Shown here one piece after another: positions 15,855-22,812 of a DNA stretch of 33,242 nt. The DNA is taken from positions 1 to 33,242 of the forward strand of contig DAHWKL010000003.1 in the NCBI GenBank assembly GCA_027343665.1, in the 5' to 3' direction. The stretch is from an archaeon. GTDB lineage: Archaea; Nanobdellota; Nanobdellia; Pacearchaeales; GW2011-AR1. The notes under the pieces are model-generated. The model made no database searches. It was not told the origin of the DNA and worked only from the letters and a program-made list of their open reading frames with translations. The translations under genes were made by a program, and so were the position numbers. Position 1 is the stretch's first letter. The number at the start of each line of letters is the position of its first letter.

Positions 15855-16460
15855 TTATCTCCTGTAAACTACCAAAAAATCCTCATCTGTCCCTTTTGCC
15901 TTTCTGGCCTTGTCAAAAATATCCTTTTTAATCTTAAAGAATTTTTTTGGATTATTAAACCCCTGATTATGGACATAAATATTTTCTTTGTCATATCCTA
16001 TGACAGGGACAAAATGACCTTGATATTTTTCCCCATTTTTCTCAAGAACGACATTCCAGTCAAGGAGCATTATCGGAATGCTATCTTCTGAGATAAGTCT
16101 GAGAAAATCTCCAAGGGCAAAAGTTTTTTCTTCCATTTTAACTCCCGCTTTTTTTGCCATGAGATTTATCTTATCAACATCACTGGAAGTTTCATCTGAA
16201 TATTTTTTATAAAAATCGAGCTTCAAATTCTCCTCATTTAATGAAAGATGTTTTGAATAAAATTCCGTCCTGAATCCATACAAAGCTGCAGCCGCTGCAA
16301 TCTGAACTGTGAAAACCGCTTTCCCTTCTTTTATCCCGACCTTTTTCTCTATGTCCTCAATAGGCTCAATTTTACCGAAATAATCAAGCACCATCTTAAG
16401 TGCTGAAGGCCCGCAGTTTAAAAGAGTCGTCTGCTTGAAAAAAGGCACATCAATTTTCAT
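15855..16460 (-). CDS. C39-like cysteine peptidase-fold protein
   Basis: A 201-residue cytoplasmic protein of the peptidase C39-like superfamily. The oxyanion Gln10 and catalytic Cys16 are in PFFKQTTLLNCGPSALKM, and the catalytic His149 is in GHFVPVIGYD; an Asn/Asp partner could be Asn165 in YVHNQG. No ABC-transporter or membrane domain is attached, so this is a stand-alone C39-like enzyme rather than a bacteriocin exporter. It leads an operon with the methyltransferase. A TATA box (gatttataacc on the minus strand, near 16480-16490) lies 26 nt upstream of the ATG. Confidence 0.8.
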   Translation of the reverse strand: MKIDVPFFKQTTLLNCGPSALKMVLDYFGKIEPIEDIEKKVGIKEGKAVFTVQIAAAAALYGFRTEFYSKHLSLNEENLKLDFYKKYSDETSSDVDKINLMAKKAGVKMEEKTFALGDFLRLISEDSIPIMLLDWNVVLEKNGEKYQGHFVPVIGYDKENIYVHNQGFNNPKKFFKIKKDIFDKARKAKGTDEDFLVVYRR

Positions 16461-16534: not shown

Positions 16535-17410
16535 ATGGAATATATTGATTTCAGGGATCAAATATCAAAGAATAAAAGAAATTCTGTATTTTTGATGATT
16601 TCCGTATTTTTTGTCATAGTCCTCTTGGGATATGTTATATCACTCGCCTTTGATCCGAGTTATTTCTTTTTCATAATGGCTCTTGCAACAATAATTTCCA
16701 TAATATACACATGGATCGGGTTTTACAATTCTGACAAAATAGCCATAAAATCTGTCGGAGCAAAACCCGCTGACAAGATTAAATATCGGGATTATTACAG
16801 GCTTGTTGAGAGTCTAACTGTGGCTTCCTCTCTTCCCATGCCAAGACTTTATGTCATGGATTCGCCATCGATAAATGCTTTTGCGAGTGGAAGGGATCCG
16901 GAACATGCAGTTTTATGCGTGACGACAGGAGCTCTTGATAAACTTGAGAGAAGGGAACTGGAGGGTGTTCTCGCGCACGAGATGGGACATGTGAGAAATT
17001 ATGACATAAGATTCACGACTCTCGTTGCTGTTATGGTCGGGATGATAGCAATATTCTCCCAGATATTTCTAAGAAGCTTATGGTTTGGCGGGGGAAGAAA
17101 TGAAAACAGAGATTCTGGAATTTTTATAATATTGGGTATTGTCCTTGCGATTCTTGCGCCGATTGTCGTAATGTTCGTGCAGCTTGCGATTTCAAGAAAA
17201 CGTGAGTACACAGCTGATGCGACAGCCGTTAAGTTCACAAGAAATCCCGAAGGGCTCATAGGAGCTCTTGAAAAGATACAAAAAGAAACACAGCCTGAAA
17301 GAAAGATATCAAAAGCCGTGGCACCTATGTTTTTCTCAAATCCATTCAAGAACCTTTCATCAACACACCCGCCGATAGATAAAAGGATAGATGTTTTGAA
17401 AAAGATGTAA
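16535..17410 (+). CDS. htpX: HtpX-like membrane zinc metalloprotease (M48)
   Basis: A 291-residue membrane protease of the M48 family that degrades damaged membrane proteins. It has two N-terminal transmembrane helices (about residues 17-38 and 43-63). The zinc motif is His148-Glu-Met-Gly-His152 with the third ligand Glu224 in SRKREYTADA. Two further hydrophobic segments lie at about 163-180 and 195-220. The C-terminal NPFKNLSSTHPPIDKRI signature is complete. A TATA-like aattttaaaac at about 16503-16513 is some 27 nt before the ATG. It is close to but not in operon with lemA. Confidence 0.96.
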   Translation: MEYIDFRDQISKNKRNSVFLMISVFFVIVLLGYVISLAFDPSYFFFIMALATIISIIYTWIGFYNSDKIAIKSVGAKPADKIKYRDYYRLVESLTVASSLPMPRLYVMDSPSINAFASGRDPEHAVLCVTTGALDKLERRELEGVLAHEMGHVRNYDIRFTTLVAVMVGMIAIFSQIFLRSLWFGGGRNENRDSGIFIILGIVLAILAPIVVMFVQLAISRKREYTADATAVKFTRNPEGLIGALEKIQKETQPERKISKAVAPMFFSNPFKNLSSTHPPIDKRIDVLKKM

Positions 17411-18180: not shown

Positions 18181-18210
18181 TTTTATAAACATCTTATTAT
18201 TCATTTGATA

Positions 18211-19263
18211 ATGGGATTAATAAGAGGTACAATAATTTTTACTCTTACCGTATTGCTTTTTATATCCCTTTTCGCAGTTAATATCTTTCTGACCTTAAGC
18301 TCATCAGTGAACTACAATAATGTAGAACCTTACATGATAAATATAACACAGACTTCAGCTTTAAATTCCGGATCAAGCGCAACAGCACTTCAGGAAATTT
18401 ATCAAAAAAAAGCGGAATGCAAAAATTCAACTTCAGTCAATTTCACGTTTGAAGGTAGCTCAATAAATATTCCGTGCCAGATAATTAGTTCGGGTGAAAA
18501 ACCCACAATTGATTACTTGGTGAATCAAACAGCGAAAAACGAATATTACAAAAATTATACCTGCAGTTTTATAGAATGTGTAAAAAATGATCCCTCTGCC
18601 TTAATCTCTCAGATGGCCAAAGAATATTGGGATTCTGAACTCAGGACTATGATCCTGCTATCTCTTGCTATATTCGGCTTGCTATTCCTCTTCTCGAAAG
18701 AGAAACATAATGCTTTCATAGTTGCAGGCATAGCCTCTGTTTTGTCATCTATTCCTTTCAGGCAAATAAACTGGCTTATATCTCTTATATCTGAATTCCT
18801 TCCATTTAGAATCCTTCCTGCATTTTTCAGCAGCGCTCCGGCAGTGTCCAATCTCATGCTGATAATCGGCATAATACTTATTTTTTCAGGCGTAGCTTTC
18901 GGTTTTTTCAAATGGGGGATAAAGATTGGAAGTTTCATAGAATCAATACTGAAAAAGATGAAGAAAGAGGAAAAGAAAGAAGAGGAAGCGGATAAAGTTG
19001 TAACAAAAGGTGAAGTTGAAAAAATTGTGAAAGAAGATATAAAGAAAGAGATGAAGAAAGATGTTGATGAGAAAGTCGAAAAAGAAGTCAAGTTAGATGT
19101 AAAAAAAGATGTCCCGAAAGAAGTAAAAAAAGAGATAAAAGAAGATGCGAATGCAAAAGTTAAAGAAGATATAAAAAAAGAAATAACCAAAGATGCCAAA
19201 GAGAATAATCAAGGAGAAAAATCCAAAAAGAGCCAGCCAAAGAAAAATGCAAAGAAAGAATAA
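18211..19263 (+). CDS. Membrane protein with Lys/Glu-rich C-terminal tail
   Basis: A 350-residue protein with an N-terminal transmembrane helix (about residues 4-28), an extracytoplasmic domain of about 115 residues with four or so cysteines and N-x-S/T sites, and three or four transmembrane helices between about 145 and 245. The cytoplasmic tail from about 250 is almost entirely Lys, Glu, Asp and Val in short repeats (KKEVKKEIKED, KVKEDIKKEITKD) and is probably a long charged helix. The helix-ectodomain-helices layout matches the protein encoded at 28922-29812, so the two are likely paralogues; the tail is unique to this one. I chose the ATG at 18211: TATA ttttataaac at 18181-18190 is 25 nt away. 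Confidence 0.72.
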   Translation: MGLIRGTIIFTLTVLLFISLFAVNIFLTLSSSVNYNNVEPYMINITQTSALNSGSSATALQEIYQKKAECKNSTSVNFTFEGSSINIPCQIISSGEKPTIDYLVNQTAKNEYYKNYTCSFIECVKNDPSALISQMAKEYWDSELRTMILLSLAIFGLLFLFSKEKHNAFIVAGIASVLSSIPFRQINWLISLISEFLPFRILPAFFSSAPAVSNLMLIIGIILIFSGVAFGFFKWGIKIGSFIESILKKMKKEEKKEEEADKVVTKGEVEKIVKEDIKKEMKKDVDEKVEKEVKLDVKKDVPKEVKKEIKEDANAKVKEDIKKEITKDAKENNQGEKSKKSQPKKNAKKE

Positions 19264-19280: not shown

Positions 19281-21395
19281 TTATATTAAACTATCGGCAT
19301 CATCACTTTCACTATCTGATTCTTCAGGAACTTTTTCTTCATTTTTGCTTTTCTCTTTATCCGCTAATTTTTGCCTTTCCTTTTCCTGCCTTGCAAGGAA
19401 ACCGGAAATGAAAGTTGAATGCCCTTCTTTTTCTGCAACACCTTCGACGCGGTAAGCTTTCATGCCTCCGATATCAAGGGGGCTGCTTTTTATATTCTGA
19501 TCAAGATTTCCCTTGAAACTCTCAGATAATAATATTTCCCCATTTGAACTGTTTGCAATTTTCTTTGCTGAAATCATGATAGTCCCCAAACTCATGAATT
19601 TTATGACATTGTGTTCAGGTTTGGTTATCACGGGTCCATAATTCAGAGAAATCCCATATTCTATTTTTTTCCTGAATTTTTTATTATGTTCATCCAAAAC
19701 TTTCTTTATCTTATGAGAAGCAGAGAGAGCCTCTTTTTGGTTCTTGAAAGTCTTCGTGAACGACGGCGCAAGTATGAAAAAAAGATAAGCTGCATTTTGA
19801 TATAAAAAACCATTGGAGCTTTCTATTATTTCACGCACTTTACCCAGAGTCTCCTTGACATTCCCTTCTCCTGAACTTATTTCAGGATAATTCTTTAACG
19901 AAATGCAACCGACCGAAGAGTTCTGTTTAGTTCCCGAAATTGAAAGGGAAATTTCAGCTCTTTTGCCTGAATGGAAAAAAGGCTCCTTTTTCATTTGCTG
20001 AGGAACTTGCTCTTTGCTTTCAGACTTTGGTTTTGCGGAAAGGACAGCAAAGCTTCCCAGATTCACTTTTGATTTTCCTTTTTTGACCATGAATTTTCTC
20101 TTGTAATTTCTTCTTATTATTAAGTAAAGCCCGAGAGCAAGAATCACTATTATGAAAGCCCATATCATAAGGTTCACATTCCAGTTATTATCATTAACTT
20201 TTTCAAGGCTTATTGCATTTCCCGAGAGGAAAACAGTGTTATGGGAGTTTCCGACAGAGACATTATACTCCCCGTCCGGCGCACTGATCAAATATTTCTG
20301 GGACATGCCGATGCCAAGTGAAACGGGGACTTCAACACTTTGAGATCCTATATTAACCGCAAGTGTGCCATTGTAAAAGACATTCCCTACATTCGTGATG
20401 GTAAGAGTATTATTTACAATTTTAGAGGAAACCGCTCTGTTTACCATTATCTGCGCGTAAGCACTGTTTATTATTCCGCCGACATAAGCTGAGATTGTAA
20501 AGTTTGAAGGTGCCTGAGTTGAATTAACGTCATAATTGAATTCATTTCCTGTTTTTGTGACTATCTGGTCGATGATGTTTCCTGAAGAATCTTTCACTGC
20601 AATGTAAGCATCCTGTCCAGCGATGTTTTTTCCCGTCTGGTCATGCAGGATTATCTTTCCGCTTATGGAGCTTCCCGGCATTACTTTCATATTGTCAAGG
20701 AGAACTTCAACATTTGTCGGCACCTGATTGACATTCAAAAAGTATATTTTACTCCCGAAATTTGAGACGCTTCCACTCGAGTCTTCCTCAGAGACATTGA
20801 GATAAAAAGTGTGCTGTCCTGCTGCAGTATCTGAAGGGAGAGCGAAATTTATTGAAAAATCTCCGTTCTTTACATCGCCGTTGAAAGTGTTATTATCCAA
20901 TCCGGCACTGTAAAATCCGTTTGCAGGCATCCCGTCCTGTTTTATCGCAGAACCAGTCAAATTCACCTCATTTCCGGGATTTACTGAAACTTGCCATCCG
21001 GAAAGATTGACATTTATGAAATTCGAGATAAGAAAATTTCCGGAGGTCGCTTCAGAAAGATTATTATCATATACCTGAAGATTGCACTGACCTGAGAGAC
21101 CGCCTACAAAAGACTTCAAAATAGGAATAAGTATCTCTTTTTGAGACCGTGAATCTACAGACAAGAACTCTTTGTATACTTCTGCTCTTGTACCGCCGCA
21201 ATTGAGGTAAACTGAAACGACACCGCTGAAAACATTTTGTGGGACTATTGATATTGTTGTATTTATGCTATCTCCGTAATTATAAACTGAATTTGGCTGA
21301 TTGGCAAAATTTATCTCACCGGCAGAAACAAAAGACACAAAAATGAGGATAAAGGCTGAAAAGACCAGAAAAGACCAAATTTTTTTCATTTTCAT
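19281..21395 (-). CDS. Receptor-like protein: Ig-like ectodomain, one TM helix, degenerate nucleotidyl-cyclase-like domain
   Basis: A 704-residue type I membrane protein. A signal peptide (residues 3-25, ending VSAG) precedes about 375 residues of beta-rich, N-glycosylatable ectodomain with Ig/CARDB-like segments (VEVLLDNMKVMPGSSISG, LTITNVGNVFYNGTLAVNI). A transmembrane helix at about 405-427 (LMIWAFIIVILALGLYLII) and a basic stop-transfer follow. The cytoplasmic domain (about 478-640) follows the class III cyclase fold: strand VGCISLKN, helix, strand YQNAAYLFFILA, helix, strand IEYGISLNYGPV, then FMSLGTIMISAKKIANSS and GEILLSES. The metal aspartates (F-x-D-I and G-D-G in active enzymes) read SL and QNA, and the N-x3-R transition-state pair is missing, so it should not be catalytic. 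The tail is highly charged. I chose the ATG at 21395 because a TATA box lies near 21427-21436 and GGTGA sits before it. Confidence 0.72.
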   Translation of the reverse strand: MKMKKIWSFLVFSAFILIFVSFVSAGEINFANQPNSVYNYGDSINTTISIVPQNVFSGVVSVYLNCGGTRAEVYKEFLSVDSRSQKEILIPILKSFVGGLSGQCNLQVYDNNLSEATSGNFLISNFINVNLSGWQVSVNPGNEVNLTGSAIKQDGMPANGFYSAGLDNNTFNGDVKNGDFSINFALPSDTAAGQHTFYLNVSEEDSSGSVSNFGSKIYFLNVNQVPTNVEVLLDNMKVMPGSSISGKIILHDQTGKNIAGQDAYIAVKDSSGNIIDQIVTKTGNEFNYDVNSTQAPSNFTISAYVGGIINSAYAQIMVNRAVSSKIVNNTLTITNVGNVFYNGTLAVNIGSQSVEVPVSLGIGMSQKYLISAPDGEYNVSVGNSHNTVFLSGNAISLEKVNDNNWNVNLMIWAFIIVILALGLYLIIRRNYKRKFMVKKGKSKVNLGSFAVLSAKPKSESKEQVPQQMKKEPFFHSGKRAEISLSISGTKQNSSVGCISLKNYPEISSGEGNVKETLGKVREIIESSNGFLYQNAAYLFFILAPSFTKTFKNQKEALSASHKIKKVLDEHNKKFRKKIEYGISLNYGPVITKPEHNVIKFMSLGTIMISAKKIANSSNGEILLSESFKGNLDQNIKSSPLDIGGMKAYRVEGVAEKEGHSTFISGFLARQEKERQKLADKEKSKNEEKVPEESDSESDDADSLI

Positions 21396-21687: not shown

Positions 21688-22812
21688 ATGGCTCAGAAAG
21701 TGAATCCATATGAGGTGGAAGGGAAAATAGATTATGATAAATTAGTTGATGAATTTGGTGTCAAGAAGATAACTCCTGACATGCTTAAGGAGATTGAAAA
21801 CATCGCGGGAGAACTTCATCCATATCTCAGGAGAGGGATATTCTTCGCTTATAGGGACCTGAAAAAAGTCCTTGATGAATATAAAAAAGGGAACAAATTT
21901 TTCCTTTACACGGGAAGAGCACCATCAGGGCCGATACACTTGGGCCATATAAGCGTCTGGTTATTCATGAAATGGCTCCAGGAAAAGTTCGATGTTGAAG
22001 TCTGGTTTCAATTTCCGGATGAAGAGAAATTCCTTTTCAAACAAGAAGCTAAATGGGAAGAGATACAGAAGTGGACTCATGAGAACATGCTTGATGTGAT
22101 AGCTTTGGGCTTTGACCCAAAGAAAACTCATTTCTTAGTCGACACTAAACACGCAGGTATAATGTATCCCGAAGCTGTGAAAGTTGCGAAAAAAATAACT
22201 TTCTCATCCATAAAAGCTGCTTTCGGATTCACTGATTCAAATAATATTGGAAGCATTTTTTATACATCAATGCAGACTGTTCCGATTTTCCTGCCAAACG
22301 TATTGAGAAGAGAGGATAGACCATGCCTTATCCCATTAGGTATAGACCAGGACGTTCATTTCAGGTTGTCAAGAGATGTCGTGGAAAAATTAGGACACCA
22401 AAAACCGGCAATAATCCATGCTAAGTTTATGCCTCCATTGACAGGAACAGAAGGGAAGATGTCTTCATCTAATCCGGATGCGGCAATACTCATGACAGAC
22501 TCGCCTAAAGAAGTCAAGAGGAAAATAAACAAATATGCTTTCTCCGGCGGAAGAGACACCGCTGAAGAACAGAGAAAATACGGTGCTAACGTCGACGTTG
22601 ATGTTGCATGCCAATGGCTCAAATATTTCGAGCATGACGACAATAAGCTCAAAAAAATATACGACGATTACGGCAAAGGAAAACTTCTTTCAGGTGAGGT
22701 TAAAAAGATTCTTATTGACAAGATAAACGATTTCCTTGCAGAACACCAGAAAAGAAGAAAAGAAGCTGAAAAACTTATTGACAAGTTCATTTACAAAGTT
22801 GAGAAGAATTAA
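21688..22812 (+). CDS. trpS: Tryptophanyl-tRNA synthetase, archaeal/eukaryotic type
   Basis: Charges tRNA-Trp with tryptophan (class I). It is 374 residues, the usual archaeal length. The first signature is HLGH at residues 84-87, preceded by GRAPSGPI. The second, KMSxS, is Lys257-Met-Ser-Ser-Ser261 in the segment GTEGKMSSSNPDAAI. Also visible are PDEEKFLF, the FTDSNNIGSIFYTSMQ tryptophan-pocket region and PLGIDQDVHFRLSRD. It is a stand-alone gene with a leaderless-type promoter. Confidence 0.98.
   Translation: MAQKVNPYEVEGKIDYDKLVDEFGVKKITPDMLKEIENIAGELHPYLRRGIFFAYRDLKKVLDEYKKGNKFFLYTGRAPSGPIHLGHISVWLFMKWLQEKFDVEVWFQFPDEEKFLFKQEAKWEEIQKWTHENMLDVIALGFDPKKTHFLVDTKHAGIMYPEAVKVAKKITFSSIKAAFGFTDSNNIGSIFYTSMQTVPIFLPNVLRREDRPCLIPLGIDQDVHFRLSRDVVEKLGHQKPAIIHAKFMPPLTGTEGKMSSSNPDAAILMTDSPKEVKRKINKYAFSGGRDTAEEQRKYGANVDVDVACQWLKYFEHDDNKLKKIYDDYGKGKLLSGEVKKILIDKINDFLAEHQKRRKEAEKLIDKFIYKVEKN

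Follow-up and report, generated by a model that had tools for sequence, protein, structure and literature searches.

The 33,242-nucleotide stretch of DNA analysed here (the window) comes from a DPANN archaeon and carries, on its minus strand, a gene for a predicted single-pass surface receptor (P0001; 19281..21395, 704 aa) whose cytoplasmic domain is related to class III nucleotide cyclases and retains none of their catalytic residues. We consider it likely that the protein descends from a receptor-type class III cyclase and now acts as a catalytically dead platform for dimerisation/docking at the membrane. Only a very small number of predicted archaeal adenylate cyclases are reported to belong to class III (PMC8646023). 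Here, a degenerate class III cyclase is among the core genes of an entire DPANN family and stands beside intact receptors with the same kind of ectodomain, an intact-to-dead series that would illustrate the path from receptor enzyme to pseudoenzyme. We found no description of this receptor pseudo-cyclase family in the open-access literature.

The reading frame starts with the ATG at 21395, with a Shine-Dalgarno-like GGTGAA just upstream, and stops at 19281. It is not a chance ORF, since the same protein is found in 70 of the 92 relatives’ genomes searched. Hydropathy reveals only two hydrophobic segments, residues 3-31 and 404-431. The former corresponds to a signal peptide (residues 1-25, 21321..21395), with cleavage predicted near the junction of VSA and GEI; the latter contains the single transmembrane (TM) helix (residues ~408-431, 20103..20174). 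Between them lies an Ig/macroglobulin-like ectodomain (residues 26-404, 20184..21320) with 11 N-glycosylation sequons (N-x-S/T) in 379 aa, versus 2 in the 270-aa cytoplasmic part. The cytoplasmic part consists of a variable juxtamembrane linker (residues 435-474, 19974..20093), the degenerate cyclase domain (residues 475-654, 19434..19973) and a conserved C-terminal motif, HSTFISGFLARQEKER (residues 659-674, 19374..19421), which may form a docking helix. All of these features lie on the minus strand. Hydropathy, sequons and macroglobulin (MG2) matches agree with the layout first proposed for this gene, that is, signal peptide, Ig-like ectodomain, one TM helix and cytoplasmic domain. Animal natriuretic peptide receptors, which are single-pass receptor guanylyl cyclases, also combine an ectodomain, one TM helix and a cytoplasmic cyclase-type domain. 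The likeness is one of layout only, as the window protein has another kind of ectodomain and lacks both the kinase-homology domain and catalysis.

The ectodomain has an MG2-like stretch that resembles the MG domains of alpha-2-macroglobulin and complement (PF01835 MG2, PF07703). In the window protein, this stretch (residues 240-294, 20514..20678, minus strand) stays below the Pfam cut-off (E = 4e-5 to 4.4e-4, 21-24 bits vs 32.8). It is stronger in relatives, where 33 of 47 ectodomains match MG2 at E<=0.01 (best 3e-13), and the ectodomain profile has a weak match to complement C4 (E=0.0026). Unlike alpha-2-macroglobulin, the window protein is a membrane receptor with an ectodomain of ~380 aa, without the thioester motif GCGEQ anywhere in its 704 aa and without a demonstrated protease-trap architecture. 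The same ectodomain and TM helix also occur in DPANN proteins with short or no cytoplasmic tails (L055, L062, L064, L068 and L070). L060 was rejected as a further cyclase-less receptor: a contig end cuts the gene, and the missing part is L082 of the same genome.

Searched singly against Pfam, NCBIfam and the PDB, the window protein gives no match on its cyclase domain, and the relationship emerges at the level of the family. A cytoplasmic-domain profile built from 49 family members places class III cyclases at the top of the PDB matches (Cya2, 2w01, E=2.2e-5; 6fht, 4e-4), and hhalign aligns the family profile to six intact DPANN cyclases with E=1.5e-12 over 155 columns. Fifteen of the 49 members reach PF00211 on their own at E<=0.01 (best 9.5e-6), while only two other families appear, each matching one member; whole-genome searches yielded several more family members above the PF00211 cut-off. 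Matches to 3eeq (a cobalamin protein) and to eS1 ribosomal proteins were dropped, being weak (E 0.05-0.2), short and not repeated. The original prediction had singled out two motifs, YGISLNYGPV and then SLGTIMISAKKIANSSNGEILLSES. Both are where it had placed them and align to the class III cores GIGINTG and TAIG..VN.A.R..G...ILIS. The domain shares 155 homologous profile columns, the order of strands and helices, and GIGINTG-like and TAIG-like cores with class III cyclase domains of the Cya2/CyaB/CyaC type (PF00211, COG2114). It differs from them in that its catalytic residues are all replaced or deleted in the window protein, its beta2-beta3 hairpin is shortened and it has no cyclase-transducing helix. 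An AlphaFold model built from only 3 sequences is poor (pLDDT 57, pTM 0.50), with an order of elements that fits class III; used as a Foldseek query, this model retrieves class III cyclases at ranks 1-48, with TM scores of only about 0.3, and we count it only as support. Judging from the family profiles, the hhalign comparison and the PF00211 matches, the cytoplasmic domain is homologous to class III nucleotide cyclases, as had been claimed from the single sequence.

The replacement of metal-binding and transition-state residues, also part of the original prediction, can be followed position by position. The metal aspartates correspond to Ser499 and Ala535/536, the transition-state Asn to Ile608 and the transition-state Arg to Lys612. 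In addition, the substrate lysine is deleted and its Thr/Asp partner is Met601, so that none of the six catalytic or specificity residues remains (S,-,A,M,I,K). The MAFFT and hhalign registers agree at the first metal position; at the second, two alignments differ by one residue, and the window protein has Ala in either register. The same losses run through the family. Both metal aspartates occur together in 0/88 domains, the first (Me1) is kept in 2/88, and an Asp at the second position, seen in 31/88 domains in one register, is never paired with the first. None of the 88 domains has the substrate lysine, which is deleted in every one; Met takes the place of its Thr/Asp partner in 45/88, and the transition-state Asn survives in 8/88. 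Because the metal aspartates, the lysine, its partner, the Asn and the Arg are all lost, the window domain, read from its residues, should not be an ordinary active class III cyclase.

The original prediction had also suggested looking in DPANN genomes for homologues that keep the two aspartates. Six were found, each combining the same ectodomain profile with one mid-protein TM helix and an intact PF00211 domain homologous to that of the window protein. Three belong to the same family as the window genome (L059 in G050, L186 in G497 and L187 in G427), and these genomes carry the dead receptor too; the others come from other families of the class (L193 in G157, L132 in G218 and L136 in G323). 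Unlike the window protein, all six keep the metal aspartates (FTD/FSD), the KxxGD motif (as K(F/Y)xGD), the Y(T/S) motif (as EY(T/S)), the Asn/Arg pair and an upstream S-helix/transducing helix such as FGKYVD. Their Lys and Thr/Ser pair presumably points to ATP as the substrate. We found no description of these six receptor cyclases in the literature searched. In a maximum-likelihood tree, a 98/98 branch separates all receptor-borne domains, whether dead or intact, from other DPANN cyclases, and the dead domains of the archaeal family form one clade (100/99), albeit with long branches. The simplest reading of this tree, within the limits set by those long branches, would be a single loss of catalysis in the lineage of the window family. 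DPANN genomes also hold scattered intact class III cyclases with a different architecture (L075, L076, L077, L189, L190 and others); no PF00027 cNMP-binding effector was found in the 92 genomes searched, whereas 10 of 14 controls were positive.

The dead form is close to universal in its own lineage. Among 180 species of the archaeal family, 169 match the cytoplasmic-domain profile, as do 17/17 family genomes that are at least 90% complete. In a phylum-wide sample, 62/64 family members match and the frequency of the domain drops fast outside the family, where the remaining matches are distant relatives or ordinary cyclases. Within the genus, mean identity is 57% for the domain versus 43-55% for four parts of the ectodomain, and falls to 14% in the linker. 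In measurable pairs, dN/dS lies at 0.035-0.23 in the domain, as against 0.11-0.32 in the ectodomain. The domain value is the lower one in every pair with both computable, a rough comparison given that several dS values are near saturation. These ratios point to a domain that is kept by purifying selection, and because it is both present in 169/180 species and low in dN/dS, we read the gene as one that is not decaying. The window’s own genome has a second, more diverged paralogue with the same ectodomain (L056, C4), which groups with L053, L057 and L063. Its cytoplasmic domain may be a still more degenerate cyclase, but we do not claim this, the hhalign probability being only 42%. A stand-alone degenerate class III domain, with no evident signal peptide or TM helix, occurs in another family of the order (L085, 310 aa, in G056).

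The segment between membrane and domain bears on how such a receptor might work. Where intact relatives have the S-helix/cyclase-transducing helix, the dead form has the variable linker (11-14% identity). With no coupling helix and a variable linker in its place, the dead form is unlikely to carry signals from the ectodomain as a rigid body; transmission by clustering or tethering would be more likely than helix rotation, and a docking/scaffold role is favoured over a rigid transmembrane sensor. The original prediction had thought of a nucleotide- or protein-binding pseudo-cyclase, perhaps a transmembrane sensor. In the platform that we propose, the dead domain would pair as class III domains do. 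Its surface, together with the C-terminal FIxxFLxR helix, would hold a cytoplasmic partner at the membrane, and the ectodomain above the tethered partner may be a cell-surface or adhesion module. Signalling would not proceed via cAMP/cGMP made by the window protein. The FIxxFLxR pattern follows the domain in 69/87 members, compared with 1.9 in shuffled tails, the pattern having been written after inspecting the sequences. The intact L059 has no such motif in its tail. Similar tails occur in relatives at the order level: L052, L058 and L067, which have the degenerate domain, and L062 and L064, which lack it; in the latter two they read FIKRSLRK and FIERALRK.

The main rival to this platform is a metal-free nucleotide or anion sensor, in which a remodelled pocket would bind, without metal, a phosphorylated ligand such as ATP or GTP and signal its presence to a partner or, inside-out, to the ectodomain. 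The order of strands and helices that forms the pocket is retained, and the basic residues kept there would also suit a nucleotide or another anion bound without metal: K/R/H occupies the first metal position in 61/88 family domains, K/R the transition-state Arg position in 84/88, and the acidic residue preceding Y(T) has become K/R in 73/88. However, the window protein itself has Ser, not Lys, at the first metal position, the residues that would recognise the substrate are gone (the lysine throughout the family, its partner frequently replaced by Met), and a report across the membrane would have to pass through an unconserved linker that lacks the rigid coupling helix. We regard the sensor as improbable on balance.

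Two further readings fare worse. The dead domain could be half of a heterodimer that pairs in trans with an active class III cyclase, as in C1/C2, and the three genomes that hold dead and intact receptors of the same ectodomain plan (G050, G427 and G497) would offer such a pairing. Yet a canonical class III cyclase is present in only 8/180 family genomes, far fewer than have the dead form, and the window’s own genome has none, which makes this arrangement very unlikely. The reading to which we give the least credence is that of a pure surface or adhesion protein with an inert cytoplasmic remnant. The DPANN proteins that have the ectodomain with short or no cytoplasmic domains fit it, but the cytoplasmic domain is more strongly conserved than the ectodomain, has the lower dN/dS in measurable pairs, and is present in nearly all genomes of the family.

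Returning to the docking platform, a wider scenario can be drawn around it, which we hold tentatively and rate somewhat below an even chance. Receptor cyclases with macroglobulin-like ectodomains would have arisen in DPANN, and in one family the receptor would have turned into a non-catalytic core hub. Through the dead domain and the C-terminal helix, this hub would connect the cell surface, possibly at host contacts, with a dedicated partner in the cytoplasm. If true, a pseudo-cyclase would be the basis of a surface-signalling or attachment system that spans a whole archaeal family. Nearly all species of this group, thought to live on hosts, have the receptor, and its partner can be searched for directly.

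Three neighbouring genes are often kept beside the receptor gene. A 352-aa membrane protein with a Lys/Glu-rich tail and no Pfam match (18205-19263, plus strand) is convergent to it, stays nearby in 15/19 relatives and is a possible partner of the receptor. A W/Y-type aminoacyl-tRNA synthetase (21688-22812) is kept in 16/19 relatives and an M48 peptidase (16535-17410) in 13/19. We do not claim an operon partner among them, since all three lie on the strand opposite to the receptor gene; for the same reason, the arrangement may have been inherited as such and not form a functional unit. A further gene (15855-16460, minus strand) matches PF09778 ‘Guanylate_cyc_2’ at 7.8e-25. C39-like peptidase models match it too, and its product more likely has a C39-type fold than that of a cyclase.
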